DNA from: Streptomyces sp. TLI_105
GTDB taxonomy: Bacteria; Actinomycetota; Actinomycetes; Streptomycetales; Streptomycetaceae
Direction of reading: 5' to 3'
DNA: 64,000 nucleotides
Assembly: GCF_900105415.1 (NCBI RefSeq)
Contig: NZ_FNSM01000001.1
Location: 6,163,501 to 6,227,500, forward strand
Below the pieces are notes generated by a model. It had not been told where the DNA came from and ran no database searches. It worked only from the letters and a program-made list of their open reading frames with translations. This document shows positions 814-56,666 of the stretch, in pieces (the first letter of the stretch is position 1; the number at the start of each line of letters is the position of its first letter). The translations under genes were made by a program, and so were the position numbers.

Positions 814-836
814 ATCCTGTCACGCGGCACCGACAG
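814..836 (-). promoter_or_regulatory. RecA-NDp/PafBC-like promoter of the molybdopterin oxidoreductase gene
   Basis: Reading the minus strand, CTGTCGGTG is followed by exactly 8 nt and then CAGGAT. This fits TTGTCRGTG-N8-TANNNT except at the first base of each element. The ATG lies 42 nt downstream. Weaker than the uvrB and uvrC examples. Confidence 0.45.
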
Positions 837-864
837 CCCGGCACCCCGACCACTGTGGACGGGA

Positions 865-887
865 TTGTCAGCGGGCCGTGGCAGGAT
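865..887 (+). promoter_or_regulatory. RecA-NDp/PafBC-like promoter of polA
   Basis: TTGTCAGCG (865-873), 8 nt, then CAGGAT (882-887). The first half matches TTGTCRGTG at 8 of 9 positions and the -10 deviates only in its first base. The polA GTG at 894 lies six bases past the -10, which predicts a leaderless mRNA. Confidence 0.55.
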
Positions 888-893
888 CGTCCC

Positions 894-3605
894 GTGGCCG
901 AGACAGCATCGAAGACCCCCGCAGACACCCGCCCCCGCCTGCTCCTCATGGACGGGCACTCGCTCGCGTACCGGGCGTTCTACGCGCTGCCCGCGGAGAA
1001 CTTCACCACCGCGACCGGACAGCCGACGAACGCGATCTACGGGTTCGCCTCGATGCTGGCGAACACGCTCCGCGACGAGGCGCCCACGCACTTCGCGGTC
1101 GCGTTCGACGTGTCCCGCAAGACCTGGCGGTCCGAGGAGTTCCCGGAGTACAAGGCGAACCGCTCCAAGACCCCCGACGAGTTCAAGGGCCAGGTCGAGC
1201 TGATCGGCGAGCTCCTCGACGCGATGAACGCGCCGCGGTTCGCCGTCGACGGCTTCGAGGCCGACGACGTCATCGCGACCCTCGCCACCCAGGCCGAGGC
1301 AGCCGGGTTCGAGGTCCTGATCGTCACCGGCGACCGGGACTCCTTCCAGCTGGTCTCCGACCACACCACCGTGCTCTACCCGACCAAGGGCGTCTCCGAG
1401 CTCACCCGCTTCACCCCGGAGAAGGTCCAGGAGAAGTACGGCCTCACGCCCTCGCAGTACCCCGACTTCGCGGCCCTGCGCGGCGACCCGTCCGACAACC
1501 TCCCGGGCATCCCCGGCGTCGGCGAGAAGACCGCGGCCAAGTGGATCAACCAGTTCGGCTCCTTCGACGAGCTCGTCGCGCGCGCCGAGGAGGTCAAGGG
1601 CAAGGCCGGCCAGAACTTCCGCGACCACCTGGAGGCGGTCAAGCTCAACCACCGCCTGACCGCGATGGTCACGGACGTCGAGCTGCCGAAGGGCGTCACG
1701 GACCTCGCCCGCGAGCCGTACGACCGCGCGGCCGTCGCCCTCGTCCTCGACACCCTGGAGATCCGCAACCCCTCGCTGCGCGAGCGGCTCCTCGCCGTCG
1801 ACCCGGGCGCCGCCGAGGAGGCCGCCCCCGCCCCCGCCGCGGGCCTGGAGCTCGACTTCACCGTCCTCGGCGCGGGCGAGCTCGCCCCCTGGCTCGCCGA
1901 GCACGCCACCGAGCCCCTCGGCATCGCCACCGTCGACAGCTGGGCCCTCGGCACCGGGAACGTCAGCGAGGTCGCCCTCGCCGCCGCCGGGGGAGCCGCC
2001 GCCTGGTTCGACCCCAGCGCGCTCGACGAGGCCGACGAGCAGGCCTGGGCCGCATGGATCTCCGCCCCCGACCGGCCGAAGGTCATGCACAACGCCAAGG
2101 GCGCCATGCGGGTCTTCCCCGAGCACGGCTGGAGCATCGCCGGCGTCACCATGGACACCGCCCTCGCCGCCTATCTGGTCAAGCCCGGCCGGCGCTCCTT
2201 CGCCCTCGACGCCCTCACCGTCGAGTACCTCGGCCGCGAGCTCGCCCCGGCGGCCGCCGCCGACGGCCAGCTCGCCTTCGGCGCAGACGACACCGCCGAG
2301 GCCGAAGCCCTCATGAGCCAGGCACGGGCCGTCCTCGACCTCGGCGCGGCCTTCGACGAGCGGCTCGCCGAGGTCGGCGCCCGCGAGCTCCTCCACGAGG
2401 TCGAGCTCCCCACCTCCGCCCTCCTCGCCCGCCTGGAGCGGCACGGCATCGCCGCCGACCGCGACCACCTGGAGGCCATGGAGCAGCAGTTCGCCGGGGC
2501 GGTCCAGCAGGCCGTCAAGGAGGCCCACGCCTCCGTCGGCCACGAGTTCAACCTCGGCTCGCCCAAGCAGCTCCAGGAGGTCTTCTTCGGCGAGCTGAAC
2601 CTCCCGAAGACCAAGAAGACCAAGACCGGCTACACGACGGACGCCGACGCCCTCGCCTGGCTGGCCGGCCAGACCGAGCACGAGCTGCCGGTGATCATGC
2701 TCCGCCACCGCGAGCAGGCCCGCCTGCGCTCCACGGTCGAGGGCCTGATCAAGACCGTCGCGGCGGACGGCCGCATCCACACCACCTTCAGCCAGACGGT
2801 CGCGGCGACCGGCCGCCTGTCCTCCACCGACCCCAACCTGCAGAACGTGCCGGTCCGCACGGACGAGGGCCGGGCCATCCGGCACGGCTTCGTCGTCGGC
2901 AAGGGCTTCGAGGCCCTCATGACCGCCGACTACAGCCAGATCGAGCTGCGCGTCATGGCCCACCTCTCCGAGGACGAGGGCCTCATCGAGGCCTTCACCT
3001 CCGGCGAGGACCTGCACACCACCGTCGCCTCCCAGGTCTTCGGCGTCGAGCGGTCCGCCGTCGACGCCGAGATGCGCCGCAAGATCAAGGCCATGTCGTA
3101 CGGCCTGGCCTACGGCCTCTCCGCCTTCGGCCTCTCGCAGCAGCTGACCATCGACCCGGCCGAGGCCCGGATCCTGATGGAGACCTACTTCGAGCGCTTC
3201 GGCGGGGTACGGGACTACCTGCGCCGCGTCGTCGACGAGGCCCGCGCCACCGGCTACACCGAGACGATGCTGGGCCGCCGCCGCTACCTCCCGGACCTCA
3301 ACAGCGACAACCGGCAGCGCCGCGAGGCCGCCGAGCGGATGGCGCTCAACGCCCCCATCCAGGGCACGGCCGCCGACATCGTCAAGGTCGCCATGCTGAA
3401 CGTCGACCGGGCGCTCACCGAGGCGGGCCTCGCCTCCCGGATGCTCCTCCAGGTCCACGACGAAATCGTGCTCGAACTCGCCCCCGGCGAGCGCGAGCAG
3501 GTCGAGACCCTGGTCCGCGAGCAGATGTCGGCCGCCGCCGACCTCCGCGCCCCCCTGGACGTCTCGGTGGGCGTCGGCCAGAACTGGGACGCGGCAGCGC
3601 ACTGA
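894..3605 (+). CDS. polA: DNA polymerase I
   Basis: DNA polymerase I of 903 residues fills repair and Okazaki gaps. The 5'-nuclease domain (about residues 15-300) carries LLLMDGHSLAYRAF, EADDVIATLA and GDPSDNLPGIPGVGEKTA. The central 3'-5' exonuclease fold (about 320-480) lacks the expected DxE metal residues, so no proofreading is predicted, as is usual for actinobacterial PolA. The polymerase domain has motif A (TADYSQIELR), motif B (RRKIKAMSYGLAYG) and motif C (QVHDEIVLE). The GTG at 894 is chosen because it gives the MAETASK-type start I recall from other Streptomyces and sits at the predicted leaderless position; an in-frame TTG at 783 is less likely. No partner gene is co-directional. 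Confidence 0.96.
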   Translation: MAETASKTPADTRPRLLLMDGHSLAYRAFYALPAENFTTATGQPTNAIYGFASMLANTLRDEAPTHFAVAFDVSRKTWRSEEFPEYKANRSKTPDEFKGQVELIGELLDAMNAPRFAVDGFEADDVIATLATQAEAAGFEVLIVTGDRDSFQLVSDHTTVLYPTKGVSELTRFTPEKVQEKYGLTPSQYPDFAALRGDPSDNLPGIPGVGEKTAAKWINQFGSFDELVARAEEVKGKAGQNFRDHLEAVKLNHRLTAMVTDVELPKGVTDLAREPYDRAAVALVLDTLEIRNPSLRERLLAVDPGAAEEAAPAPAAGLELDFTVLGAGELAPWLAEHATEPLGIATVDSWALGTGNVSEVALAAAGGAAAWFDPSALDEADEQAWAAWISAPDRPKVMHNAKGAMRVFPEHGWSIAGVTMDTALAAYLVKPGRRSFALDALTVEYLGRELAPAAAADGQLAFGADDTAEAEALMSQARAVLDLGAAFDERLAEVGARELLHEVELPTSALLARLERHGIAADRDHLEAMEQQFAGAVQQAVKEAHASVGHEFNLGSPKQLQEVFFGELNLPKTKKTKTGYTTDADALAWLAGQTEHELPVIMLRHREQARLRSTVEGLIKTVAADGRIHTTFSQTVAATGRLSSTDPNLQNVPVRTDEGRAIRHGFVVGKGFEALMTADYSQIELRVMAHLSEDEGLIEAFTSGEDLHTTVASQVFGVERSAVDAEMRRKIKAMSYGLAYGLSAFGLSQQLTIDPAEARILMETYFERFGGVRDYLRRVVDEARATGYTETMLGRRRYLPDLNSDNRQRREAAERMALNAPIQGTAADIVKVAMLNVDRALTEAGLASRMLLQVHDEIVLELAPGEREQVETLVREQMSAAADLRAPLDVSVGVGQNWDAAAH

Positions 3606-3611
3606 CGAGAC

Positions 3612-3629
3612 GCCCACCCCGTCGTGGGC
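3612..3629 (+). terminator. short hairpin after polA
   Basis: GCCCAC/GTGGGC with a 6-nt loop lies 6 nt after the polA stop. There is no T tract, so it is only a possible terminator. Confidence 0.35.
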
Positions 3630-3654
3630 ACCTGGCCGGGGCCCCCGTCCCACC

Positions 3655-3836: not shown

Positions 3837-3919
3837 CGACACGGGACAGGCCCGGTGGATGTGCGCCAGTCGGACCAGTAAAAGGGCGCCCGGGCGGCAC
3901 GGCTCCCGAAACTGGGGGC

Positions 3920-5092: not shown

Positions 5093-5810
5093 CGTCGAGG
5101 GGCGTCTCGATCCGGTCCCAGCCCCAGTACGCCGCCCAGCGCAGCACCCGGTGGGCGACACCCCCGAGGACGCAGCCGCCGATCAGCCCGGCGGCCAGGA
5201 GCCGGCCGCGTCGGCCGGGGACCGGAACCCGGGACGGCAGCCCCACCCCAGGAGGGGAGGTGCGCAACGCCCGCGCCGTGCACCAGGCGAGGATTCCGAG
5301 GGCCAGCGCCGAACCGCCGTACTGCGCGTAGAGATAGACCGGGAACCCGGCGACGACCTCACCGAGGAAGGGGATCGCGCGGGTGCCCCAGCGGTCGAGA
5401 TGGGTGAAGGAGTCCCACACCACGTGCGTGGTGGCGCCGAGGATCGCCGAGAGGCAGAACCACCCGACGAGCGCCGCCGGGTGCCGCTCCCGCCAGGGAC
5501 GGCCCCGGACGAGGCCGTGCACCCGGCCGCGCCACCGCTCGGGCAGCAGCGCGACGAGCGGCTCGCGCACGGTCAGCCACAGGGCCACGAGCGCGGCGGT
5601 GATCAGCACGTCGGCCGTGACGATCCCGACGGGGGAGTGGGTGACGTCCCCGAGGACCATCGCCCCGGGGAACGCGGTCGCGGCGAAGTAGGTCATGTCG
5701 GGCGAGAAGGACCCGGCGACGAGGGCGGACGCGACCAGCGGGCCGCGCGCGGTCCCGTCCCGGCGCAGCGCGGGCAGCACGGCGGCGGCGTGGCTCAGCG
5801 TGAACGGCAA
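4899..5810 (-). CDS. DUF4184 family membrane protein
   Basis: A 303-residue integral membrane protein with the DUF4184 start signature LPFTLSHAAAVLPALRRDG and conserved FSPDMTYF, LGDVTHSPVG and TTHVVWDSFTHLDRWG segments. The His/Asp-rich pattern resembles membrane-embedded metal-dependent hydrolases (YdjM-like), but no activity is established. I chose the TTG at 5810 because GGGGGAA precedes it by 6 nt and family members begin with MPFTLSHA. About five or six hydrophobic segments follow. The Arg/Pro-rich tail overlaps the 3' end of the convergent serine hydrolase gene for 194 bp. Confidence 0.82.
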   Translation of the reverse strand: MPFTLSHAAAVLPALRRDGTARGPLVASALVAGSFSPDMTYFAATAFPGAMVLGDVTHSPVGIVTADVLITAALVALWLTVREPLVALLPERWRGRVHGLVRGRPWRERHPAALVGWFCLSAILGATTHVVWDSFTHLDRWGTRAIPFLGEVVAGFPVYLYAQYGGSALALGILAWCTARALRTSPPGVGLPSRVPVPGRRGRLLAAGLIGGCVLGGVAHRVLRWAAYWGWDRIETPLDVIPTACFGAGAGLAVGLVLYGTGARLLGSRRARTAPATPTHQEPAHRDLPGPGPRPERSRPGSR

Positions 5811-17669: not shown

Positions 17670-17692
17670 TTGTCAGACCCCGCTTGTAAGGT
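17670..17692 (+). promoter_or_regulatory. RecA-NDp/PafBC-like promoter of the SNF2-SWIM operon
   Basis: TTGTCAGAC (17670-17678), 8 nt, then TAAGGT (17687-17692). It matches TTGTCRGNN-N8-TANNNT exactly; only the weakly conserved TG is AC. A start near 17699 leaves a leader of about 36 nt with GGGAGGGGAG before the GTG. Confidence 0.7.
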
Positions 17693-17734: not shown

Positions 17735-20599
17735 GTGGCACACACCTGGATGACCAGCGCCGCCGTCTTCCTGCCCGCCGCCCTTCCCCGTGACGGCCGG
17801 GTCGCCTTCTGGGCCCCCGACGGCGGCTCACCGCCGGACCCGGCGGTGAGCGGGGCGGAGCGGGTCGAGCTGACCGTGGCCCGGCGGCACGGCAGCGGCG
17901 CCCGTGCCCGCTCCGTGCCCGCCGTGGCCCTGCCCGTCGAGGTCGCGCTGCCGCATCTCGTCGCGGCCCGCCACCACCCGGCCGCGCACCCCGCCACCGC
18001 CGGCTGGGGCGCCGCCACCCTGCACGCCCTGCACCTGGCCGCGCGCGGGCGGCTGCTGCCCGGACTGACCGCCGACGACCTGGACGCCTGGCGCGCCGGA
18101 CCGCTGGACGCCGAGGACATCGCCCACCTGCGGGCCGTCGCCGCCGCCCTGCCGTACGAGGGGTACGCCGTGCCGGTGCCGGGGCGCGGTCCGCTGCGGC
18201 TGCCCGAGCCCGAGGCCCTCGTGCGCGCCTTCCTCGACGCGGTCGCCGACATCCTGCCCCGCACCCCGGCCGCCGCCCACGCGGTCGGCGCGCCGTTCGC
18301 GGCGCGCGCCCCGCAGCACCTGCCCCGCGCGCGTGCCTGGGCCGCCGAGGCGGCGGCCGGGATGGACGCCGGGGTGCGGGTCTCGCTCCGCCTCGACCTG
18401 TCGCCGTACGAACTCTTCGACGCGACGGACACCACGGACACCGCCGGCCCGGACGGCGAAGGGGACGGCGGGGAGCGCCACGCCGCCGCCGCGCTCCTCC
18501 AGATCCACAGCCTCGCCGACCCCACCCTCGTCATCGACGCCGCGGACCTGTGGGCGGGGGACGGCGAGCACTTCGGGCCCCGCGCCCGGATCGACGCCGT
18601 CCTCGCCCTGCGCCGGGCCGCCCGCGTCTGGCCCCCGCTCTCCCGCCTCCTGGAGCGGGACGTGCCCGACGTCCTCGCCGTCACCGAGGACGAGCTGTAC
18701 GAACTGCTCGGCCCGGCCGCCGCCCGCCTCGCCGACGCGGGGGTCGCACTCCACTGGCCGCGGGAACTCGCCCGCTCCCTCAGCGCCTCCGCCGTCGTCC
18801 GTCCCGCGCACGCCGCGCCCGGCTCCGCCACCGACGGCACCTCCTTCTTCGACAGCGAGGAGCTCCTGCGGTTCAACTGGCAGCTGGCGCTCGACGGCGA
18901 CCCGCTCACCGAGCGCGAGATGGACCTCCTGGCCGAGGCCCACCGGCCCGTCGTGCGCCTCCGCGACCAGTGGGTCGTCGTCGACCCCGCCCTCGTCCGC
19001 AAGGCCCGCAAGCGGGAACTCGGCCTGCTCGAACCGGTCGACGCCCTCGCCGCCGCGCTCACCGGCACCGCCGAGGTCGACGGCGAGTCCGTCCCCGCCG
19101 TCCCCGTCGGAGCCCTCGCCGCGCTCCGCGACCGGCTCCTGGCCGGCCCCGAGGACGTGCAGGCACCCCCCGGCCTCACCGCCACCCTGCGCGACTACCA
19201 GCTCCGCGGCCTCGCCTGGCTGGACCTGATGACCTCCCTCGGCCTCGGCGGCTGCCTCGCCGACGACATGGGACTCGGCAAGACCGTCACCCTCATCGCC
19301 CTCCACCTGCGCCGCGCCCGCCGCGCCCCCACCCTCGTCGTCTGCCCGGCCTCCCTCCTCGGCAACTGGCAGCGGGAGGTGCGGAAGTTCGCCCCCGATG
19401 TGCCCGTCCGGCGCTTCCACGGCACGGACCGGGACCTCGACGGCACCGAGGGCGGTTTCGTCCTCACCACCTACGGCACCCTGCGCACCAGCGCCGCCCG
19501 GCTCGCCGAGCGGGAGTGGGGGATGGTCGTCGCCGACGAGGCGCAGCACGTCAAGAACCCCTTCTCCGCGACCGCCAAGGCGCTGCGCGAGATCCCCGCC
19601 CCCGCCAGGGTCGCCCTCACCGGCACCCCAGTGGAGAACAACCTCTCCGAACTCTGGGCGCTCCTCGACTGGACCACCCCCGGTCTCCTCGGACCGCTCA
19701 AGACCTTCCGCTCCCGCCACGCCCGGGCCGTGGAGAACCACGAGGAGATCGAGCACGAGGAGGCCGTCGAGCGGCTCGCCCGGCTCGTGCGCCCCTTCCT
19801 GCTGCGCCGCCGCAAGTCCGACCCCGGGATCGTCCCCGAACTCCCGCCGAAGACGGAGTCCGACCATCCCGTCGCCCTCACCCGCGAACAGGCCTCGCTG
19901 TACGAGGCGGTCGTCCGCGAGACCATGGCCCGCATCGAGGGCGCCGAGGGCATGGCCCGCCGGGGCCTCGTCATGAGCCTGCTGACCTCCCTCAAGCAGA
20001 TCTGCAACCACCCCGCGCAGTACCTCAAGGAACAGGCCCCGCGCGGCAGCGGCACCGCGCGGCTCGCCGGCCGGTCCGGGAAGCTCGCCCTGCTCGACGA
20101 GCTCCTCGACACGATCCTCGCGGAGGACGGGTCCGTACTCGTCTTCACCCAGTACGTGTCGATGGCGCGGCTCCTCGCCGACCACCTGGCCGCGCGGGGC
20201 GTCCCCGCCCAACTCCTGCACGGCGGCACGCCGGTGGCCGAGCGGGAGCGGATGGTCGACCGCTTCCAGGCCGGCGAGGTCCCCGTCTTCCTGCTCTCCC
20301 TGAAGGCCGCGGGCACCGGCCTCAACCTCACCCGGGCCGGCCACGTCGTCCACTACGACCGCTGGTGGAACCCGGCCGTCGAGGAGCAGGCCACCGACCG
20401 GGCCTACCGCATCGGGCAGACCCAGCCGGTGCAGGTCCACCGGCTCGTCGCCGAGGGCACCGTCGAGGACCGCATCGCCGAGATGCTCCGCGCCAAACGG
20501 GCCCTGGCCGACGCCGTCCTCGGCTCCGGCGAGGCCGCCCTCACCGAACTCACCGACCGGGAGCTCGCCGACCTGGTGTCCCTGAGGAGGCCCTCGTGA
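17735..20599 (+). CDS. SNF2-family helicase-like ATPase
   Basis: A 954-residue Swi2/Snf2 ATPase. The first 450 residues are an Ala/Leu/Asp-rich bacterial SNF2-associated region. The ATPase core has Walker A DDMGLGKTVTL, a DEAQ box (VVADEAQHVKN), SAT-equivalent ALTGTPVENNLSELW, ICNHPAQ, SLKAAGTGLNLT and motif VI DRAYRIGQTQPVQVHR. Such proteins translocate on double-stranded DNA and remodel protein-DNA complexes. The GTG at 17735 follows GGGAGGGGAG. The stop overlaps the SWIM gene start by 4 bp (GTGA), so the two are translationally coupled. The upstream motif suggests DNA-damage control. Confidence 0.93.
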   Translation: MAHTWMTSAAVFLPAALPRDGRVAFWAPDGGSPPDPAVSGAERVELTVARRHGSGARARSVPAVALPVEVALPHLVAARHHPAAHPATAGWGAATLHALHLAARGRLLPGLTADDLDAWRAGPLDAEDIAHLRAVAAALPYEGYAVPVPGRGPLRLPEPEALVRAFLDAVADILPRTPAAAHAVGAPFAARAPQHLPRARAWAAEAAAGMDAGVRVSLRLDLSPYELFDATDTTDTAGPDGEGDGGERHAAAALLQIHSLADPTLVIDAADLWAGDGEHFGPRARIDAVLALRRAARVWPPLSRLLERDVPDVLAVTEDELYELLGPAAARLADAGVALHWPRELARSLSASAVVRPAHAAPGSATDGTSFFDSEELLRFNWQLALDGDPLTEREMDLLAEAHRPVVRLRDQWVVVDPALVRKARKRELGLLEPVDALAAALTGTAEVDGESVPAVPVGALAALRDRLLAGPEDVQAPPGLTATLRDYQLRGLAWLDLMTSLGLGGCLADDMGLGKTVTLIALHLRRARRAPTLVVCPASLLGNWQREVRKFAPDVPVRRFHGTDRDLDGTEGGFVLTTYGTLRTSAARLAEREWGMVVADEAQHVKNPFSATAKALREIPAPARVALTGTPVENNLSELWALLDWTTPGLLGPLKTFRSRHARAVENHEEIEHEEAVERLARLVRPFLLRRRKSDPGIVPELPPKTESDHPVALTREQASLYEAVVRETMARIEGAEGMARRGLVMSLLTSLKQICNHPAQYLKEQAPRGSGTARLAGRSGKLALLDELLDTILAEDGSVLVFTQYVSMARLLADHLAARGVPAQLLHGGTPVAERERMVDRFQAGEVPVFLLSLKAAGTGLNLTRAGHVVHYDRWWNPAVEEQATDRAYRIGQTQPVQVHRLVAEGTVEDRIAEMLRAKRALADAVLGSGEAALTELTDRELADLVSLRRPS

Positions 20600-21876
20600 A
20601 CCACGCAAGGGGCGCGCGGGGCGCCCGGGGCGCCGCCCTCCGGCACGACGACCGCCGCCGCAGCTTCCCGCAGGTCGCGCCGCGCTCGGCCCCCGACGGC
20701 CGGTTCGCCGCCACCTGGTGGGGAAACGCCTGGGTGGCCGCCCTGGAGGACGCCGCCCTCGACGCGGCCCGTCTCGCGCGGGGCAAGGCGTACGCGGGGC
20801 GCGGCCACGTCGACGCGATCACGGTCACCCCCGGCCGGGTCGTCGCCTACGTCCACGGCAGCCGGCCCCGCCCGTACCGAACCGAGATCAGGATGCGGAC
20901 CCTCGGCGACGACGGCTGGGAGCGGTTCCTCGACGAGGCCGCCGCCCGCCCCGACCACATCGCCGCCCTGCTCGACAAGGACGTGCCGCACGCCCTGGAG
21001 GCGGTCGCCGGACTGCTGCCCGCGCCGGGCGACCTCGTCCCCGACTGCTCCTGCCCGGACGACGGTTACCCCTGCAAGCACGCCGCCGCCCTCTGCTACC
21101 AGGCCGCCCGTCTCCTCGACGAGGACCCGTTCGTCCTCTTCCTGATGCGCGGCCGCGGGGAGCAGGAGCTCCTCGCCGAGCTCACCCGGCGCAACGCCGC
21201 CCGGGGCGCCGCCGAGACGGGCGCCGCCGCCCCGCCGATGCCCACGGTCCCCGCCCGTGTCGCGCTCGCCGCGGCCACCGGGGCAGGGCTCCCGCCGCTG
21301 CCGCCCGAGCTGCCGGTCCCGGACCGGCCCGGCCGCCCGGCGGTCTTCCCGCCGGACCCGGACGCCCCCGATCCGCTCGCCCTCGACCTCCTCGCCACCG
21401 AGGCCGCCGCCCGCGCCCACGCCTTCCTCGCCACCGGCCACGACCCGGTCGCCGCGCTCACTCCCTGGCAGGACGCGGTCCGGCTGGCCGCCGCGCACCC
21501 CGGCTCCGGCCTCACCGCCTCGTCGCGCGCGCTCTACCGCGACCTGGCGGGCGCCCTCGACCGGACCCCCACGGAGCTCGCCCGCGCCGTCGCCGCCTGG
21601 CGCCAGGGCGGCGCGGCGGGCCTCGCCGTCCTCGAAGAGCCCTGGGATCCGCCGGCCGGTCCGTTCGACCGGGCCAGACCCGCGCTGCTCGCCGCCGACT
21701 TCCCCGCCTTCCGCCCCTGGCGCAACAGGCTCTCCGGGGAGTCCCTCCAGCTCCGGCTCGGCCGCGACGGCCTCTGGTACGGGTACGAGTCGGACGCCGG
21801 CCGCGAGGACTGGTGGCCGCGCGGCGCCCCCGACCCGGACCCGGTGGGTGCCCTCACCGATCTCCTGGGGCGCTGA
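20596..21876 (+). CDS. SWIM zinc-finger protein
   Basis: A 426-residue protein with a SWIM zinc finger (CSCPDDGYPCKH, about residues 151-162) in the middle of an alpha/beta region rich in Trp and aromatic residues (TWWGNAWVAALED near the start, LWYGYESDAGREDWW at the end). SWIM fingers bind DNA or protein; bacterial SNF2-linked SWIM proteins are thought to act together with the helicase. It starts inside the helicase stop codon (GTGA overlap), strongly implying a complex. The linker at about 200-260 is Pro/Ala-rich. Confidence 0.9.
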   Translation: MNHARGARGARGAALRHDDRRRSFPQVAPRSAPDGRFAATWWGNAWVAALEDAALDAARLARGKAYAGRGHVDAITVTPGRVVAYVHGSRPRPYRTEIRMRTLGDDGWERFLDEAAARPDHIAALLDKDVPHALEAVAGLLPAPGDLVPDCSCPDDGYPCKHAAALCYQAARLLDEDPFVLFLMRGRGEQELLAELTRRNAARGAAETGAAAPPMPTVPARVALAAATGAGLPPLPPELPVPDRPGRPAVFPPDPDAPDPLALDLLATEAAARAHAFLATGHDPVAALTPWQDAVRLAAAHPGSGLTASSRALYRDLAGALDRTPTELARAVAAWRQGGAAGLAVLEEPWDPPAGPFDRARPALLAADFPAFRPWRNRLSGESLQLRLGRDGLWYGYESDAGREDWWPRGAPDPDPVGALTDLLGR

Positions 21877-36532: not shown

Positions 36533-37111
36533 TCAGAAGAGCGGCGCCGGCAGCACCCCCTCCAGGGCCAGCAGCCGCCGCTTCGTCTCCAGACCGCCGC
36601 CGAAGCCGCCGAGACCGCCGTCGCTCTCCACCACCCGGTGGCAGGGCACCACGACCGGCAGCGGATTGGCGCCCATCGCCGCCCCGACCGCCTGCGCCGC
36701 GCCGGGCTGCCCCACGCGCCTCGCCAGCTCCCCGTACCCGACGACCGTGCCGTACGGAACGCCCGTCGCCAGCTCGCGCAGCACCTGCCGGTTGAAGCCG
36801 GTCGTCAGGCTCCAGTCCAACGGCAGGTCGAGGCGGTCCGGCTCGCCCGCGAAGTACCGGTCGAGCCGGCGTATCGCCTCCGCCAGACGTCCCGAGGCGC
36901 ATTCCACCGGCTCCGCGCCGAGCTGCCCCGCCAGCCGGTCGAGCATCCGCTCCCGCCGCGCCGCGTCGGCGTGGAACTCGACCCGCACGAGCCCCCGCCC
37001 GGTCGCGGCGAGGAAGAGCGGCCCGATGGCGCTCTCCACGACCGTCCACTCCGCCGTGGCGTCCCGCTCCCGGCCGCCCGGCCCCGCCGCCGCCCCCGTG
37101 TCGATGTCCAT
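36533..37111 (-). CDS. ogt: Methylated-DNA--protein-cysteine S-methyltransferase
   Basis: A 192-residue suicide repair protein that transfers alkyl groups from O6-alkylguanine to its own cysteine. The active site is VVPCHRVV (about residues 154-161), preceded by TGFNRQVLRELATGVPYGTV and the helix-turn-helix YGELARRVGQPGAAQAVG. The ATG at 37111 lies 8 nt past a TACCGT -10, so the mRNA is predicted to be leaderless. It is a single-gene unit under a RecA-NDp-like promoter. Confidence 0.93.
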   Translation of the reverse strand: MDIDTGAAAGPGGRERDATAEWTVVESAIGPLFLAATGRGLVRVEFHADAARRERMLDRLAGQLGAEPVECASGRLAEAIRRLDRYFAGEPDRLDLPLDWSLTTGFNRQVLRELATGVPYGTVVGYGELARRVGQPGAAQAVGAAMGANPLPVVVPCHRVVESDGGLGGFGGGLETKRRLLALEGVLPAPLF

Positions 37112-37421
37112 GCCGCCCACGGTACGACCCGCCACCGACAACACGGCCCGGAAACCGTCACCGACAACGCCGCCCGGAGTCGTCACCGGCACCACGGCCC
37201 CGACCCGTCGCGGACAAGCCGGTCCGGAACGGTCGCGGATCGCCCGGCCCGGAGCCCTCCCCGAGATCACGGACCGGTCTCGCTCCGGTCTCGCGAATGG
37301 AAATTCCCCGGTCACGTGGTCGCCGAGCCCCGGGCGCGCCATAATCTCGCCCCGGTAGTACTACCCAGCGGTACCGACTGTTTTCGGACGACGTTGCACC
37401 AGGGGTGGAGGGCACACGCTC
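37112..37421. other. 310-nt divergent spacer between ogt and the MHYT gene
   Basis: I see no gene here. It holds the ogt promoter, a second TTGTCGGTG on the minus strand near 37160 without a -10, a perfect 12-bp palindrome GGTAGTACTACC (37354-37365) and CATAAT at 37340-37345, a weak -10 for the MHYT gene. Confidence 0.6.
37119..37141 (-). promoter_or_regulatory. RecA-NDp/PafBC-like promoter of ogt
   Basis: On the minus strand TTGTCGGTG (37133-37141), 8 nt, then TACCGT (37119-37124), a full match to TTGTCRGTG-N8-TANNNT. The ATG is 8 nt after the -10, giving a leaderless mRNA. Confidence 0.8.
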
Positions 37422-38375: not shown

Positions 38376-38398
38376 GTGTCAGTGCCGGGTCGTACGGT
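38376..38398 (+). promoter_or_regulatory. RecA-NDp/PafBC-like promoter of uvrB
   Basis: GTGTCAGTG (38376-38384), 8 nt, then TACGGT (38393-38398), matching TTGTCRGTG-N8-TANNNT except for the first base. The ATG at 38405 is six bases past the -10, which predicts a leaderless mRNA. Confidence 0.8.
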
Positions 38399-38404: not shown

Positions 38405-40543
38405 ATGCGGCCCGTTTCCAAGATCGAACGTTCGGTGGCGCCCTTCGAGGTCGTCAGTGAGTACCAGCCCAGCGGCGACCAGCCGACCGCCATCGCCGAC
38501 CTCGAGCGGCGCATCCGCGCGGGCGAGAAGGACGTCGTGCTCCTCGGTGCCACCGGCACCGGCAAGTCGGCGACCACCGCCTGGATGATCGAGAAGCTCC
38601 AGCGCCCCACCCTGGTGATGGCGCCGAACAAGACGCTGGCCGCCCAGCTGGCGAACGAGTTCCGCGAGCTCCTGCCGAACAACGCCGTCGAGTACTTCGT
38701 CTCGTACTACGACTACTACCAGCCCGAGGCGTACGTCCCGCAGTCGGACACCTACATCGAGAAGGACTCCTCCATCAACGAGGAGGTGGAGCGGCTCCGC
38801 CACTCCGCGACGAACTCCCTGCTCACCCGCCGGGACGTCGTCGTGGTCGCCTCCGTCTCCTGCATCTACGGCCTCGGCACGCCCCAGGAGTACGTGGACC
38901 GGATGGTCCCGCTCAAGGTCGGCGAGGAGATCGACCGCGACCAGCTGCTGCGCCGCTTCGTCGACATCCAGTACACCCGGAACGACCTGGCGTTCACCCG
39001 CGGCACCTTCCGGGTGCGCGGCGACACCATCGAGATCTTCCCGGTGTACGAGGAGCTCGCCGTCCGTATCGAGATGTTCGGCGACGAGATCGAGGCCCTC
39101 TCCACCCTCCACCCGCTCACCGGCGAGGTCATCAGCGAGGACCGCGAGCTGTACGTCTTCCCCGCCAGCCACTACGTCGCCGGGCCCGAGCGCATGGAGC
39201 GGGCGATCAACGACATCGAGCGCGAGCTGGAGGTCCGCCTCGCCGAGCTGGACAAGCAGGGCAAGCACCTGGAGTCCCAGCGCCTGCGGATGCGCACCAC
39301 GTACGACATCGAGATGATGCGGCAGATCGGCTCCTGCTCCGGCATCGAGAACTACTCGATGCACTTCGACGGCCGCGAGCCCGGCTCCGCGCCCAACACC
39401 CTCCTCGACTACTTCCCCGAGGACTTCCTCCTCGTCATCGACGAGTCGCACGTCACCGTGCCGCAGATCGGCGCCATGTACGAGGGCGACGCCTCCCGCA
39501 AGCGGACCCTGGTCGACCACGGCTTCCGGCTCCCCTCCGCCCTCGACAACCGCCCGCTGAAGTGGGAGGAGTTCCAGGAGCGGATCGGCCAGACCGTCTA
39601 CCTCTCCGCGACCCCCGGCACCTACGAGCTCTCGCGCGGCGACGGCTTCGTCGAGCAGATCATCCGCCCCACCGGACTCGTCGACCCCGAGGTCGTCGTC
39701 AAGCCCACCGAGGGCCAGATCGACGACCTGGTCCACGAGATCCGGCTGCGTGCCGAGCGCGACGAGCGGGTCCTCGTCACCACCCTCACCAAGAAGATGG
39801 CCGAGGACCTCACCGACTACTTCCTGGAGCTCGGCATCCAGGTGCGCTACCTGCACAGCGACGTCGACACCCTGCGCCGCATCGAGCTGCTGCGCGAGCT
39901 GCGCGCCGGCGAGTACGACGTCCTCGTCGGCATCAACCTCCTCCGGGAGGGCCTCGACCTGCCCGAGGTGTCCCTGGTCGCCATCCTCGACGCCGACAAG
40001 CAGGGCTTCCTGCGCTCCGGGACCTCCCTCATCCAGACGATCGGCCGCGCCGCGCGGAACGTGTCGGGCCAGGTCCACATGTACGCCGACCGGATCACCC
40101 CGGCGATGGAGCAGGCCATCGACGAGACCAACCGGCGCCGCGAGAAGCAGATCGCGTACAACACGGAGCGCGGCATCGACCCGCAGCCGCTCCGCAAGAA
40201 GATCAACGACATCGTCGCGACCATCGCGCGCGAGGAGATCGACACCGAGGAACTGCTCGGCACCGGCTACCGGCAGGGGAAGGAGGGCAAGGGTGCGAAG
40301 GCCCCCGTGCCCTCGCTCGCCGCGCACGGCCCCGCGGCCAAGGGCAAGGGCGGCAAGGTCGGCTCCACCGTCGAGCTCGGCGACCGGCCCGCCACCCAAC
40401 TGGCCGCGCTCATCGAGGAGATGACCGAACGCATGCGCGCCGCGGCGGCCGAGCTGCAGTTCGAGGTGGCGGCCCGGCTCCGCGACGAAGTGGGGGAGCT
40501 GAAGAAGGAGTTGCGCCAGATGAAGGAGGCGGGACTCGCCTGA
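38405..40543 (+). CDS. uvrB: Excinuclease ABC subunit B
   Basis: A 712-residue damage-recognition helicase of nucleotide excision repair. Walker A is [10 protein letters not shown], the beta-hairpin region [12 protein letters not shown], the DEAD-like motif VIDESHVT, motif V region [14 protein letters not shown] and motif [11 protein letters not shown]. The UvrB/UvrC interaction motif is at the end ([17 protein letters not shown]). It loads at lesions with UvrA and recruits UvrC. A RecA-NDp-like motif places its ATG at the expected transcription start. It is followed by a candidate terminator and the terD gene. Confidence 0.97.
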
Positions 40544-40610: not shown

Positions 40611-40633
40611 GTGTCGGTGCCGCTGCGTAGGGT
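40611..40633 (+). promoter_or_regulatory. RecA-NDp/PafBC-like promoter of terD
   Basis: GTGTCGGTG (40611-40619), 8 nt, then TAGGGT (40628-40633), a match to TTGTCRGTG-N8-TANNNT except for the first base. It would give a leader of about 56 nt. Confidence 0.75.
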
Positions 40634-40694: not shown

Positions 40695-41273
40695 GTGTCG
40701 GTCAACATGACCAAGGGCCAGGCCATCAGCCTGGAGAAGAGGGGCGGGGGCAGCCTCACCCAGGTGCGGATGGGGCTCGGCTGGCAGGCGGCGCCGCGCC
40801 GCGGTCTCTTCGGCTCGCGCACCCGGGAGATCGACCTGGACGCCTCGGCCGTCCTCTTCGCCGAGAAGCAGCCGGTGGACGTGGTCTTCTTCCGCCACCT
40901 GGTCAGCGACGACGGCTCGGTCAAGCACACCGGCGACAACCTCGTCGGCGGCGCGGGCCAGGGCGGCGACGACGAGGCGATCCTCGTGGACCTGGAGCGG
41001 GTGCCGGTCCACATCGACCAGATCGTCTTCACGGTGAACTCCTTCACCGGCCAGACGTTCCAGGAGGTGCAGAACGCCTTCTGCCGGATCGTCGACGAGA
41101 CGAACGGGCAGGAGCTCGCGCGCTACACCCTCGACGGCGGCGGCAACTACACCGCGCAGATCATGGCGAAGGTGCACCGGGTCGGCTCCGGCTGGCAGAT
41201 GACGGCCCTGGGCAACCCGGCCAACGGGCGCACCTTCCAGGACCTGATGCCCGCGATCCTGCCGCACCTGTAG
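40695..41273 (+). CDS. TerD family stress-response protein
   Basis: A 192-residue TerD-domain protein, a calcium-binding beta-sandwich linked to resistance to tellurite and other stresses. The family signatures EIDLDASAVLF, VVFFRHLVSDDGSVKHTGDN and DDEAILVDLERVP are clear. A basic, Arg-rich insert (AAPRRGLFGSRTR) follows the first strand. The GTG at 40695 has GAGAGGGG upstream. A RecA-NDp-like promoter precedes it, and a TerD-fusion gene and terC follow, so it probably works with them at the membrane. Confidence 0.93.
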   Translation: MSVNMTKGQAISLEKRGGGSLTQVRMGLGWQAAPRRGLFGSRTREIDLDASAVLFAEKQPVDVVFFRHLVSDDGSVKHTGDNLVGGAGQGGDDEAILVDLERVPVHIDQIVFTVNSFTGQTFQEVQNAFCRIVDETNGQELARYTLDGGGNYTAQIMAKVHRVGSGWQMTALGNPANGRTFQDLMPAILPHL

Positions 41274-46115: not shown

Positions 46116-46772
46116 TCACCAGCCGCGCCGACGCCACTCCGCGAGGTGCGGGCGCTCGTCACCGAGCGTGGTGTCCCGGCCGTGGCCGGGATAGACCCAG
46201 GACTCGTCGGGCAGGACCGCGAAGAGCTTGGTCTCCACGTCGTGGATCAGGCTCGCGAAGGCCTCCGGGTCCTTCCACGTGTTGCCCACGCCGCCCGGGA
46301 AGAGGCAGTCGCCGGTGAAGACGTGGGGGTGGCCGTGCGGGTCGTCGTAGACCAGGGCGATCGAGCCCGGCGTGTGCCCGACGAGGCGGCGCGCGGTCAG
46401 CTCGACCCGGCCCACCCGGATCGTGTCGCCGTCCTCGACGGGCACCTCGGTCGGGACGGGGATGCCCTCCACGTCGTACGCGCCCGCGTAGGTCCGGGCG
46501 CCGGTCGCGGCGACGACCTCTTCCAGGGCCTGCCAGTGGTCGCCATGCCGGTGGGTGGTGACGACGGCGGAGATGCCGTCGTCACCGATCAGCGTGAGCA
46601 GCGTCGAGGGCTCGTTGGCCGCGTCGATCAGCAGCTGCTCGCCGGTCGCCCGGCAGCGCAGCAGATACGCGTTGTTGTCCATCGGACCGACCGCGACCTT
46701 CGAGATCATCAGGTCCGTCAGCTCGTGCACGTCCGCCGCGCCGCCGACCTTCACCACTCCGCTGTACGTCAT
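46116..46772 (-). CDS. MBL-fold metallo-hydrolase (glyoxalase II-like)
   Basis: A 218-residue metallo-beta-lactamase-fold enzyme with the binuclear metal motif THRHGDHW (about residues 74-81), GHTPGSIAL, FTGDCLFPGG and VYPGHGRDTT. It resembles glyoxalase II/persulfide dioxygenase-like hydrolases; the substrate may be a mycothiol or glutathione-type thioester. Its ATG at 46772 sits 7 nt past a TAGTCT -10, so its mRNA is predicted leaderless and damage-inducible. It is next to a MITE-like element. Confidence 0.88.
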   Translation of the reverse strand: MTYSGVVKVGGAADVHELTDLMISKVAVGPMDNNAYLLRCRATGEQLLIDAANEPSTLLTLIGDDGISAVVTTHRHGDHWQALEEVVAATGARTYAGAYDVEGIPVPTEVPVEDGDTIRVGRVELTARRLVGHTPGSIALVYDDPHGHPHVFTGDCLFPGGVGNTWKDPEAFASLIHDVETKLFAVLPDESWVYPGHGRDTTLGDERPHLAEWRRRGW

Positions 46773-46778: not shown

Positions 46779-46801
46779 AGACTAGCTCCGGCGACCGACA
46801 A
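46779..46801 (-). promoter_or_regulatory. RecA-NDp/PafBC-like promoter of the MBL hydrolase gene
   Basis: On the minus strand TTGTCGGTC (46793-46801), 8 nt, then TAGTCT (46779-46784). It matches TTGTCRGTG-N8-TANNNT except for the ninth base. The ATG is 7 nt past the -10. Confidence 0.72.
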
Positions 46802-47799: not shown

Positions 47800-47877
47800 C
47801 TCGATGGAAGCATCCGGCATCCTTGGTTGTTGGGTGTGTCAGGCACATCCGCTCTCTCAAGAAAGGTGCGGACCGGC

Positions 47878-50865
47878 GTGGCCGACCGTCTCATCGTCCG
47901 TGGCGCTCGCGAGCACAACCTCAAGAACGTCTCGCTCGACCTCCCGCGTGACTCCCTCATCGTCTTCACCGGGCTCTCGGGGTCGGGCAAGTCCTCCCTC
48001 GCGTTCGACACGATCTTCGCCGAGGGGCAGCGCCGGTACGTCGAGTCGCTCTCCTCGTACGCCCGGCAGTTCCTCGGCCAGATGGACAAGCCGGACGTCG
48101 ACTTCATCGAAGGTCTCTCGCCCGCCGTCTCCATCGACCAGAAGTCGACCTCGCGCAACCCGCGCTCGACGGTCGGCACCATCACGGAGGTCTACGACTA
48201 CCTCCGTCTGCTCTTCGCCCGCATCGGCAAGCCGCACTGTCCCGAGTGCCGCCGGCCCATCTCCCGCCAGTCGCCGCAGGCCATCGTCGACAAGGTCCTG
48301 GAGCTCCCCGAGGGCAGCCGCTTCCAGGTGCTCTCCCCGCTCGTGCGCGAGCGCAAGGGCGAGTTCGTCGACCTCTTCGCCGACCTCCAGACCAAGGGCT
48401 ACAGCCGCGCCCGCGTCGACGGCGTGACCGTGCAGCTCACCGAGCCGCCGACGCTGAAGAAGCAGGAGAAGCACACGATCGAGGTGGTCGTCGACCGCCT
48501 CACCGTCAAGGACAGCGCCAAGCGCCGGCTCACCGACTCCGTCGAGACCGCCCTCGGACTCTCCGGCGGCATGGTCGTGCTCGACTTCGTCGACCTCCCC
48601 GAGGACGACCCCGAGCGCGAGAAGATGTACTCGGAGCACCTCTACTGCCCGTACGACGACCTCTCCTTCGAGGAGCTGGAGCCGCGCTCCTTCTCCTTCA
48701 ACTCGCCCTTCGGCGCCTGCCCCGACTGCACCGGCATCGGCACCCGCATGGAGGTCGACCCCGAGCTGGTCGTCCCCGACGAGGAGAAGTCCCTCGACGA
48801 GGGCGCCATCCACCCCTGGTCGCACGGCCACACCAAGGAGTACTTCGGCCGGATGATCGACGGGCTCTCGCAGGCCCTCGGCTTCCGCACCGACATCCCG
48901 TACGCCGGGCTCCCGCAGCGGGCCAAGAAGGCCCTCATGCACGGCCACAAGACCCAGATCGAGGTCCGCTACCGCAACCGGTACGGGCGCGAGCGCGCCT
49001 GGACCACCCCCGCCTTCGAGGGCGCCGTCTCCTTCGTCAAGCGGCGGCACAGCGAGGCCGAGAGCGACTCCAGCCGCGAGCGCTTCGAGGGCTACATGCG
49101 CGAGGTGCCCTGCCCCACCTGTGAGGGCACCCGCCTCAAGCCGATCGTCCTCGCGGTCACGGTCATGGACAGGTCCATCGCCGAGGTCGCCGCGATGTCC
49201 ATCAGCGACTGCGCCGAGTTCCTCTCCCGGCTCACGCTCAACGCCCGCGACAAGAAGATCGCCGAGCGGGTCCTCAAGGAGGTCAACGAGCGGCTGCGCT
49301 TCCTCGTCGACGTCGGCCTCGACTACCTCTCGCTCAACCGGGCGGCGGGCACGCTCTCCGGCGGAGAGGCCCAGCGCATCCGGCTCGCCACCCAGATCGG
49401 TTCCGGCCTGGTCGGCGTGCTCTACGTGCTCGACGAGCCGTCCATCGGCCTCCACCAGCGCGACAACCACCGGCTCATCGAGACCCTGGTCCGGCTCCGG
49501 GACATGGGCAACACGCTCATCGTCGTCGAGCACGACGAGGACACCATCAAGGTCGCCGACTGGGTCGTCGACATCGGCCCCGGCGCCGGCGAGCACGGCG
49601 GCAAGGTCGTCCACTCCGGCTCCCTGAAGGAGCTCCTCGCCAACGAGGAGTCGATGACCGGGCAGTACCTGTCCGGCCGCAGGGCGATCGCCACCCCGGA
49701 CGTCCGCCGCCCGGTGGACCCCGGACGGCGGCTCACCGTGCACGGCGCCCGCGAGAACAACCTGCGGGACATCGACGTCTCCTTCCCGCTGGGCGTCCTC
49801 ACCGCCGTCACCGGCGTCTCGGGATCCGGCAAGTCGACCCTGGTCAACGACATCCTCTACACCCACCTGGCGCGCGAGCTGAACGGCGCCAAGTCGGTGC
49901 CCGGACGGCACACGCGCGTGGACGGCGACGACCTCGTCGACAAGGTCGTGCACGTCGACCAGTCGCCGATCGGCCGCACCCCGCGGTCGAACCCGGCGAC
50001 GTACACCGGCGTCTTCGACCACGTCCGCAAGCTCTTCGCCGAGACGATGGAGGCCAAGGTCCGGGGCTACCTGCCCGGCCGCTTCTCCTTCAACGTCAAG
50101 GGCGGCCGCTGCGAGAACTGCTCCGGCGACGGCACGATCAAGATCGAGATGAACTTCCTCCCGGACGTCTACGTCCCGTGCGAGGTCTGCCACGGCGACC
50201 GGTACAACCGGGAGACCCTGGAGGTCCACTACAAGGGCAAGTCCATCGCCGAGGTCCTGAACATGCCGATCGAGGAGGCCCTGGACTTCTTCGAGGCCGT
50301 CCCGACCATCGCGCGCCACCTGCGCACGCTCAACGAGGTCGGCCTCGGGTACGTCCGCCTCGGCCAGTCGGCGCCGACGCTCTCCGGTGGCGAGGCGCAG
50401 CGCGTCAAGCTCGCCTCCGAGCTCCAGAAGCGCTCGACGGGCCGCACGGTGTACGTGCTCGACGAGCCGACCACCGGCCTCCACTTCGAGGACATCTCGA
50501 AGCTGATCAAGGTCCTGTCCGGCCTGGTCGACAAGGGCAACTCGGTGATCGTCATCGAGCACAACCTCGATGTCATCAAGACCGCCGACTGGGTCATCGA
50601 CATGGGCCCCGAGGGCGGCAGCGGCGGCGGTCTGGTGATCGCCGAGGGCACGCCGGAGGAGGTCGCCTCGGTCCCCGAGAGCCACACCGGCAAGTTCCTC
50701 CGCGAGATCCTCGGCGCCGACCGGATCAGCGACGCCGGCGGGAAGATCCCGGCGGCCCGCGGGGCGAAGAAGACGGCGGCGAAGAAGGCCCCCGCGAAGA
50801 AGGTGGCGGCTCCCGCGAAGAAGGCGGCCGCCAAGAAGGCGACGGCCCGCACCCGCAAGGCGTGA
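47878..50865 (+). CDS. uvrA: Excinuclease ABC subunit A
   Basis: A 995-residue DNA-damage sensor of nucleotide excision repair with two ABC ATPase halves. Walker A sites are [12 protein letters not shown] and [12 protein letters not shown]; signature motifs are [11 protein letters not shown] and [11 protein letters not shown]. Zinc sites are CPECRRPI / CPDCTGIG with CPTCEGTRL in the first half and CENCSGDG / CEVCHGD in the second. The last 35 residues are a Lys/Ala-rich tail with repeated AKKA units. The GTG at 47878 has GAAAGG about 10 nt upstream. It is preceded by a LexA-box-like sequence and lacks the RecA-NDp motif seen at uvrB and uvrC. Confidence 0.97.
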
Positions 50866-51565: not shown

Positions 51566-51586
51566 GCGGTCCGGAACCCCACCGCC

Positions 51587-52516: not shown

Positions 52517-52529
52517 GAGGACTCCTCGG

Positions 52530-52541: not shown

Positions 52542-52746
52542 ACGGGGGCACGGACCGTCGCGCCGCGAGGGGCGGGCGGGCAGGTGGGCCGGGGGTTTTC
52601 GTTCACACCCGGGTCACACCGTTCACGGTCCGATGTCACCCCGCATTGAAGCGTGTTGACCCGGCCCGGACAACGGCCGATGCTCCTGACCAGCGTCCGG
52701 ACGCGCTCCTCCACCCCCCTCATCCCCAGCTCCTGGGAGGAACGCG

Positions 52747-54083: not shown

Positions 54084-54099
54084 CCCCTGCGACGGGCCT

Positions 54100-54620: not shown

Positions 54621-54629
54621 CGCCGTGGG

Positions 54630-54652
54630 GTGTCGGTGGGCGCCAGTAGGGT
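54630..54652 (+). promoter_or_regulatory. RecA-NDp/PafBC-like promoter of uvrC
   Basis: GTGTCGGTG (54630-54638), 8 nt, then TAGGGT (54647-54652), a match to TTGTCRGTG-N8-TANNNT except for the first base. The ATG at 54660 is 8 nt past the -10, which predicts a leaderless mRNA for the whole uvrC-rapZ-yvcK-whiA operon. Confidence 0.8.
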
Positions 54653-54659
54653 GGTGAGC

Positions 54660-56666
54660 ATGGCCGACCCCTCCAGCTACCGCCCCAAGCCGGGTCAGAT
54701 CCCCGACTCCCCGGGGGTCTACAAGTTCCGCGACGAGCACCGCCGGGTCATCTACGTGGGGAAGGCGAAGTCCCTGCGTCAGCGGCTGGCGAACTACTTC
54801 CAGCCGCTCACGAGCCTGCATCCGCGCACGGCCACCATGGTGACGACGGCCGCCTCCGTGGAGTGGACGGTGGTGTCCACCGAGGTCGAGGCGCTGCAGC
54901 TGGAGTACTCCTGGATCAAGGAGTTCGATCCCCGGTTCAACGTGAAGTACCGGGACGACAAGAGCTACCCGTACCTCGCGGTCACCATGAACGAGGAGTT
55001 CCCGCGCGTCCAGGTCATGCGCGGCCACAAGAAGAAGGGCGTGCGCTACTTCGGGCCGTACGCGCACGCGTGGGCGATCCGCGAGACCGTCGACCTGATG
55101 CTGCGGGTGTTCCCCGTGCGGACCTGCTCGGCGGGGGTCTTCCGGAACGCCGCGTCGGCCGGGCGCCCCTGTCTCCTCGGCTACATCGGCAAGTGCTCGG
55201 CGCCCTGCGTCGGCCGGGTCACGCCCGAGGAGCACCGCGAACTGGCCGAGGACTTCAGCGACTTCATGGCCGGCCGCACCGGCACGTACATCCGCCGGCT
55301 GGAGAAGCAGATGATGATCGCGGCCGAGGACATGGAGTACGAGAAGGCCGCCCGGCTCCGCGACGACATAGAGGCCCTGCGCCGGGCCATGGAGAAGAAC
55401 GCGGTCGTCCTCGCCGACGCCACCGACGCCGATCTGATCGCCCTCGCCGAGGACGAGCTGGAGGCGGCGGTGCAGATCTTCCACGTGCGCGGCGGCCGCG
55501 TCCGGGGCCAGCGCGGCTGGGTCACGGACAAGGTCGAGGCCGTCGACACGGCGGGGCTCGTGGAGCACGCCCTCCAGCAGCTGTACGGCGAGGAGAGCGG
55601 CGACGCGGTCCCCAAGGAGGTCCTCGTCCCGGCGCTCCCCGAGGACACGGAGGCCGTCTCCGCCTGGCTCTCCGGCCGCCGCGGATCCCTCGTCTCGCTG
55701 CGCGTCCCGCAGCGCGGCGACAAGAAGGACCTGATGGAGACGGTCGCGCGCAACGCCCAGCAGGCGCTCGTCCTGCACAAGACCAAGCGGGCCAGCGACC
55801 TGACCACCCGCTCCCGGGCCCTGGAGGAGATCGCCGAGGCCCTGGACCTGGACTCGGCGCCGCTGCGGATCGAGTGCTTCGACATCTCGCACCTCCAGGG
55901 CGAGGACGTCGTCGCCTCGATGGTGGTCTTCGAGGACGGGCTGCCCCGCAAGAGCGAGTACCGCCGCTTCCAGATCAAGGGCTTCGAGGGCCAGGACGAC
56001 GTCCGGTCCATGCACGAGGTGATCAGCCGCCGCTTCAAGCGTTACCTCGCCGAGAAGGACCGCACGGGGGAGTGGGGCCCGGTCGGCGACGGTGAGGTCC
56101 CCGCCGGCGGCGAGGTCCCCGCCGAGGACGCCCAGGACGACGGCCGGCCCAAGCGCTTCGCGTACCCGCCGCAGCTCGTCGTCGTCGACGGCGGGCAGCC
56201 GCAGGTCGCCGCGGCCCGCCGCGCCCTCGACGAGCTCGGCATCGACGACGTCGCGGTCTGCGGCCTCGCCAAGCGGCTGGAGGAGGTCTGGCTGCCCGGC
56301 GACGACGACCCGGTGGTGCTGCCCCGCTCCAGCGAGGGCCTCTATCTGCTCCAGCGGGTGCGTGACACGGCTCACGACTTCGCCATCCGCTACCAGCGGT
56401 CCAAGCGGACCAAACGTCTCCGGACCAGCCCGCTCGACGCCGTCCCCGGCCTCGGGGAGTCGCGCAAGCAGGCCTTGATCAAGCATTTCGGCTCGGTGAA
56501 GCGGCTGAAGCAGGCGACAATCGAGCAGATCTGTGAGGTCCCCGGCTTCGGCCGGAAGACCGCGGAGGCGGTCGCCGTGGCCCTGGCCCAGGCGGCCCCC
56601 GCCGCACCCGCCGTGAACACGGCCACAGGAGAGATCATGGAAGACGACGGGGGCACCACCGCATGA
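54660..56666 (+). CDS. uvrC: Excinuclease ABC subunit C
   Basis: A 668-residue nuclease that makes both incisions in nucleotide excision repair. The GIY-YIG domain is at the N-terminus ([21 protein letters not shown]), the UvrB-binding helix at about 205-240 ([16 protein letters not shown]), the RNase H-like C-terminal nuclease around [20 protein letters not shown] and VVVDGGQPQ, and a helix-hairpin-helix tail ([29 protein letters not shown]). A low-complexity insert ([15 protein letters not shown]) lies near residue 480. ATG at 54660, at the predicted transcription start. It is the first gene of the uvrC-rapZ-yvcK-whiA operon. Confidence 0.97.

Follow-up and report, generated by a model that had tools for sequence, protein, structure and literature searches.

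Candidate PafBC-type DNA-damage promoters before repair genes of a Streptomyces genome, and a variant box elsewhere in the phylum

Eight promoter-like sites and their genes

The window, which is the whole 64-kb stretch of DNA that was analysed, carried eight sites resembling TTGTCRGTG-N8-TANNNT. Two of them were divergent and lay near its left edge. The predicted PafBC-type promoter of polA (865..887, + strand) consisted of TTGTCAGCG-N8-CAGGAT with an extended -10 TGG, and a GTG codon lay 6 nt past the -10. It was followed by polA (894..3605, +; Pfam DNA_pol_A), which encodes DNA polymerase I and was predicted to be leaderless. The divergent site (814..836, −) was CTGTCGGTG-N8-CAGGAT with an extended -10 TGA. 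It was located 5' of a molybdopterin oxidoreductase gene, whose N-terminal part occupied 1..771 (−; Pfam PF00384) and which continued past the window edge. The SNF2 site (17670..17692, +) had a variant box, TTGTCAGAC-N8-TAAGGT, and preceded a gene for an SNF2-family helicase (17750..20599, +; Pfam), whose start was taken from the gene finder. The next gene encoded a SWIM zinc finger protein (20596-21876; Pfam).

The ogt promoter (37119..37141, −), TTGTCGGTG-N8-TACCGT with an ATG 7 nt past the -10, stood before the O6-methylguanine-DNA methyltransferase gene ogt (36533..37111, −; Pfam). A second copy of TTGTCGGTG was found at 37167 (−), 26 nt upstream of the ogt box, and had no fitting -10. The uvrB promoter (38376..38398, +) was GTGTCAGTG-N8-TACGGT with an ATG 6 nt past the -10, followed by uvrB (38405..40543, +; Pfam). 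This uvrB shared 85-88% identity with two named Streptomyces records, on which basis the genome was assigned to Streptomyces. The terD site (40611..40633, +), GTGTCGGTG-N8-TAGGGT, lay 61 nt before the predicted GTG start of a TerD-domain protein gene (40695..41273, +; Pfam), and this start came from a codon-usage gene finder. The site of the metallo-beta-lactamase-fold (MBL) hydrolase was lineage-specific (46779..46801, −) and read TTGTCGGTC-N8-TAGTCT with an ATG 6 nt past the -10; its gene occupied 46116..46772 (−; Pfam). The uvrC promoter (54630..54652, +) was again GTGTCGGTG-N8-TAGGGT, with an ATG 7 nt past the -10, before uvrC (54660..56666, +; Pfam).

The original prediction had placed the motif before these eight genes with an invariable gap and, for five of them, had put the start codon 6-7 nt beyond the -10. 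It was accurate in all three respects: every site was present where it had been claimed, the spacer that separates the 9-mer from the -10 hexamer was exactly 8 nt in all eight, and the five genes were polA, ogt, uvrB, MBL and uvrC. Compared with TTGTCRGTG-N8-TANNNT, ogt had no mismatch and was the sole strict match of the window. There was one mismatch in uvrB, terD and uvrC (first base G) and in MBL (last box base C), and two each in polA, SNF2 and the oxidoreductase.

Frequency, targets and geometry across the genome

Motif counts were compared with expectation and with reversed patterns. The single strict match in the window compared with 0.01 expected. In the whole genome (8.88 Mb), KTGTCRGTG-N8-TANNNT gave 32 matches, four of them in the window, against 0 for its reversed control. 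The motif, for which the original prediction had proposed a genome-wide weight-matrix scan, was thus more frequent than chance. When the gap was freed from 2 to 17 nt (16 lengths), N8 accounted for 42/47 genome matches, and the reversed pattern gave 5 over all lengths. With at most one mismatch, there were 94 matches genome-wide against 7 for the reversed pattern. All of these were read except one on the second contig, and 73 of the 93 readable sites were intergenic, as were 21/22 strict sites. 'Intergenic' was defined by a simple codon-usage gene finder, and a site was counted as intragenic only if it lay more than 30 nt into a gene. The other 20/93 sites fell within predicted genes, and the assumption that every one-mismatch match is real was rejected. 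A weight matrix built from the 68 intergenic sites outside the window placed the eight sites within the ten best window scores. The remaining two, 62014 (−) and 6173 (−), lay inside predicted genes and may be background or antisense promoters. Their position indicated that sites with one or two mismatches include background. Other individual sites were also recorded. One box with a 9-nt gap (G000:C1:1568037, +; L118) adjoined a WYL-domain frame at 1567415. Two sites near opposite contig ends (G000:C1:118795, −, and 8530461, +) were both followed by GACCGGTATGAAC, as if they stood before related small genes.

Fifty proteins encoded downstream of the 68 intergenic sites outside the window were scanned with Pfam, some of them more than 100 nt from the site. 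The controls were genes at 20 evenly spaced places, two of which held no gene, leaving 18. Repair, recombination or replication families were found in 14/50 target proteins and in 0/18 controls (Fisher p=0.014). The E-value threshold was 1e-3 for targets and 1e-5 for controls, and all 14 repair-type matches were below 1e-13. The enrichment at repair genes that the original prediction had proposed to look for was therefore observed. The 14 were RecA, RecQ, DnaN, DnaX, a RadA-like protein, RuvC, an AlkZ-like glycosylase, a uracil-DNA-glycosylase-family protein, an MgsA-type ATPase, a PD-(D/E)XK nuclease, a gyrase/topoisomerase IV A subunit, an Lhr-type helicase, an RNase_T-family exonuclease and a DinB-type (IMS) polymerase, where names beyond the Pfam labels are our own reading. 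Among the other 36 were transporters and domains of unknown function, and 14 of the 36 had no Pfam match. A near-match site before a PD-(D/E)XK nuclease gene (G000:C1:6579005, −; L157) lay a few kb from the Pup locus.

The distance to the start codon was similar at many sites. ATG or GTG lay 6-8 nt past the -10 at 39/73 intergenic sites, compared with a mean of 6.6 and a maximum of 12 for other 3-nt offsets, and at only 4/20 intragenic sites. In S. lividans, the average distance from the hexamer to the transcription start is 6.3 nt, and leaderless transcripts make up 17% of the total, compared with 21% in S. coelicolor, according to the part of the source available (PMC8079986). At about half of the intergenic sites, the start codon would thus lie where transcription should begin, and the mRNAs of those sites should be leaderless. 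One published case is a point against the generality of leaderless starts. The RecA-NDp transcript of M. tuberculosis Rv1955 has a leader, with the transcription start 85-86 bp and a GTG translation start 135 bp past the annotated start, as given in the text accessible to us (PMC2897130).

Two kinds of -10 were distinguished. The hexamers of polA and the oxidoreductase lacked the first T of TANNNT and had TG one base upstream. The pattern TGTCRGNG-N5-TGN-VANNNT gave 26 genome matches and the control 0. Outside the window, TG was present at 9/20 intergenic sites without the first T, compared with 3/48 sites with it (p=4e-4). Intragenic sites made up 16/36 of the non-T class, and TG occurred in 3 of these 16, which indicated that this class holds background. 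Three polA loci of the genus (L213, L214, L218) had the hexamer TAGGAT and no TG. We read this pattern as compensation, in which the extended TG would stand in for the missing first T.

Conservation in the genus and box types in the phylum

Orthologous loci of the genus were scored with the matrix from the 68 sites outside the window, at a cut-off of 14 that was chosen after the window scores had been seen. For uvrB, ogt, terD, MBL, uvrC and the control genes, 36/41 genomes were used; left out were the window's own genome and four in which uvrB was partial or on short contig pieces. For polA, SNF2 and the oxidoreductase, the loci were the best 30 matches, with the window's own locus counted in. 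The original prediction had treated all eight genes as targets, and conservation divided them. Scores of at least 14 were reached at 35/36 uvrB loci, 29/30 polA loci and 24/30 SNF2 loci, so that these three were kept in the genus. In SNF2, the best match had TGTC and TANNNT in 30/30 of the best loci, with the gap fixed by the matrix, and most of these had TTGTCAGAC or a near form. The ogt site was present in 6/6 orthologs, but these six were all that were found in 36 regions. Conservation was partial for uvrC (11/18), the oxidoreductase (13/30) and terD (12/34). The MBL site reached the cut-off in 3/35 loci, and MBL was rejected as a conserved target. Among control genes of the window, none of 199 ortholog regions of nine genes and none of five regions of one further gene scored at least 14.

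In several loci, the box had decayed and the -10 was often retained. TAGGGT was found in 18/18 uvrC loci, each with an ATG 7 nt on, and in 20/34 terD loci. The boxes of terD, MBL and the oxidoreductase were gained or lost variably within the genus. One Streptomyces uvrB ortholog (L289) had a full box with a 7-nt gap. The uvrA gene (window 47866-50865, +) had no site here, and 18/35 genus orthologs had one, 43-70 nt before the aligned start. Among 78 uvrB loci from all phyla, 17 combined a box that kept 8-9 of 9 bases with N8, TANNNT and a start codon 6-7 nt on. All 17 were actinobacterial and represented 15 named genera and one MAG. The uvrB loci of Bifidobacterium, Mobiluncus and Corynebacterium among the 78 had no such promoter.

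The canonical box and PafC matches were then counted in 396 genomes, with the reversed pattern as control. The window's class was represented by 60 genomes, all with a PafC match, in which the canonical count was 1564 vs 26 for the control. Natural loss of pafBC was thus not found among these 60. Outside the class, the canonical count was 169 vs 45 even in the 123 genomes with PafC at E<=1e-25, and the canonical motif was rejected as a phylum-wide marker. This weakness led us to search for a variant box. The pattern TGTCRSAC-N8-TANNNT was suggested by uvrB of Acidimicrobiales-type records and by SNF2, and it was counted in the same genomes. It gave 731 matches vs 105 in the 123 genomes above and 450 vs 114 inside the class. 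With PafC at E 1e-10 to 1e-24 (91 genomes outside the class), canonical and variant counts were 63 vs 45 and 135 vs 79. With weaker PafC (43 genomes), they were 21 vs 15 and 20 vs 49, and without a PafC match (79 genomes), 61 vs 52 and 80 vs 127. Outside the class, the Spearman correlation between PafC strength and excess was 0.58 for the variant and 0.19 for the canonical box, values from which species relatedness was not removed.

The variant sites had a geometry similar to that of the canonical ones. In five genomes rich in the variant, for which all matches were listed, TGTCRCAC was tried with 14 gap lengths, and N8 accounted for 117/133 matches, compared with 31 in all for the reversed control. 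We examined 29 of 30 variant loci (L331 omitted), and 14/29 had ATG or GTG 6-8 nt on. Twenty proteins, chosen by hand for a long frame near the site, were scanned, and 10/20 were of repair type. They were RecA twice, a RadA-like protein, UvrD, RmuC, an SbcD-like protein and four RNase_T-family exonucleases, one with UvrC-like parts. In one locus from another class (L326), the variant box was followed by a SWIM zinc-finger protein, just as one is encoded after the window SNF2 gene.

PafB sequences were compared with box type. In the recognition helix of 40 genomes, the best separator of the 34 PafB columns compared was the column just before the conserved arginine, residue 45 (0.86; next 0.41). 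Arginine was found there in 19/22 genomes with more variant than canonical sites and in 0/16 with more canonical than variant sites. A further 20 genomes, mostly picked for mixed counts, added 18 helices. These 58 genomes were a selection for high or mixed box counts, not a random sample, and two of them had no site. In the others, canonical/variant totals without background subtraction were 22/296 for Arg (24 genomes), 98/94 for Lys/His/Gln (17) and 320/89 for other residues (15). The Lys/His/Gln genomes were mixed, and a clean switch was rejected for a graded bias. The PafC tree divided the class from non-class genomes. Two genomes of family f17, with Lys45 and mostly canonical boxes, lay inside the other half. 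Other Lys45 genomes of f17, e.g. G120 and G131, leaned to the variant. In family f43, G208 (Lys45) had 3 canonical and 0 variant sites, and G128 (Arg45) had 2 and 5.

These results suggested, with the balance slightly in favour, that PafB residue 45 shifts the preference for the second half of the -26 box. Outside the window's class, Arg45 lineages would control a DNA-damage regulon chiefly through TGTCACAC-type boxes. Asn/Ser/Asp/Glu45 lineages would use mainly TGTCRGTG with a minority of variant boxes, and Lys/His/Gln45 lineages both types. The 8-nt gap and the leaderless starts would be the same throughout. This reading became slightly less likely because the variant exceeded its control inside the class too. 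On these alignments, residue 45 is a graded correlate of box type with few independent shifts, and not a proven switch.

Regulator, alternative readings and meaning

The genome encodes PafB (WYL-WCX) and PafC (HTH_PafC-WYL-WCX) in tandem, two genes downstream of the Pup-ligase gene in a region that includes Pup. Its PafB matched the PafB chain of 7p5x (E 1e-57). As described in the accessible text (PMC11804915), ssDNA activates PafBC of M. smegmatis, which enables the housekeeping holoenzyme to use promoters that carry a -26 motif. We consider it very probable that the window sites belong to the RecA-NDp kind and act as PafBC-type DNA-damage promoters. By analogy with what was shown in mycobacteria, ssDNA made by damage would be bound by the WYL domains of PafBC, PafB would read the TGTCRGTG box at about -26, and PafC would hold region 4 of the housekeeping sigma factor. 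RNA polymerase would then start from a -10 fixed 8 nt downstream of the box. This -10 would be TANNNT or, at sites that lack the first T such as polA and the oxidoreductase, an extended TGN-xANNNT. PafBC dependence in Streptomyces is what we infer from co-occurrence and homology.

Other readings of the box were weighed against this one. The box could be the -35 element of an alternative sigma factor and no activator site. The housekeeping -35 is TTGACA, to which TTGTCA is similar. However, TTGTCA lies only 11 nt from the -10 hexamer, which itself is the ordinary TANNNT. In S. lividans, the -35 is nTGACn and the average spacings are 16.5 and 17.4 nt in the portion of the study at hand (PMC8079986). 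This reading was rejected for its wrong spacing, and we hold it to be very improbable. Another activator such as ClgR might read the box, with PafBC acting indirectly, since ClgR was reported, in the section consulted, to recognise the RecA-independent promoter of M. smegmatis (PMC5656591). However, the motif excess tracks PafC across the phylum, and the PafB column that best separates box types sits in the recognition helix, which make such an activator unlikely. A LexA damage response exists in Streptomyces, at least in the excerpt available (PMC9380542), and the window repair genes could be SOS targets with an incidental box. Exact GAACNNNNGTTC was absent from the window, and a version short of one end base had a single window match at 5809, away from the eight sites, so that neither scan found an SOS box at any of them. 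LexA control was rejected on this ground and is very improbable.

The MBL, terD and oxidoreductase sites could also be ordinary promoters that came to resemble the box by chance or only transiently. Their low shares of conserved loci (3/35, 12/34 and 13/30, the last among the best 30 matches) and the retained terD hexamer (20/34) favoured this. However, all three keep the 8-nt gap in the window, and roughly a third to two fifths of the genus loci of terD and the oxidoreductase have an intact box. We regard it as possible but rather unlikely. We judge that seven of the eight window sites probably work as members of the regulon, and that the MBL site is doubtful.

The original prediction that Streptomyces uses the same regulon as mycobacteria was supported in part, by the motif type, the marking of repair genes and the encoded PafB, PafC, Pup-ligase and Pup genes. 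A Streptomyces form of the motif is not new and, in the sources as available to us, is already in print. The S. rimosus recA promoter was given as TTGTCAGTGGC-N6-TAGggT (Ahel 2002, as cited in PMC2375139). A recA-type motif was listed in 2008 for 67 S. coelicolor genes, among them uvrB and polymerase I genes (PMC2375139), and the UV-inducible S. coelicolor SCO6735 was found to carry the motif in 2016 (PMC5087735). The motif and genus are the same here, and these sources, as far as accessible, describe no extended -10, leaderless starts or variant box. The accessible part of a 2021 review extended the motif to other Actinobacteria (PMC8223512). A 2022 S. venezuelae paper, in the text at hand, stated that a first search pointed to a lack of conservation of the M. 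smegmatis PafBC motif and left a PafBC-like response open (PMC9380542).

The likeness to mycobacterial RecA-NDp/P1 promoters bound by PafBC, as far as their published descriptions were accessible, lay in the tTGTCRgtg box, the 8-nt gap, TannnT and repair-gene targets, and PafB and PafC genes near Pup genes are shared with the mycobacterial system. The differences lay in the extended -10 class, the high predicted leaderless share and the Streptomyces targets. DriD of Caulobacter, in the passages available, is likewise a WYL-domain damage activator that binds ssDNA at the WYL domain, but it is a homodimer. Among the titles and beginnings of abstracts searched, which covered little subscription literature and are weak evidence of absence, we found no report of the variant box, residue 45, enrichment of the regulon in leaderless mRNAs or extended -10 TG at sites without the first -10 T.

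These results make a PafBC-like damage response of Streptomyces directly testable, with a genome-, genus- and phylum-wide signal and named targets. With a CAC-type box, the regulon would reach into lineages of the phylum in which the mycobacterial consensus yields few sites. Residue 45 offers a way to test, by one substitution, how PafB recognises DNA. That a damage regulon is rich in leaderless mRNAs suggests that its translation may behave differently under stress.
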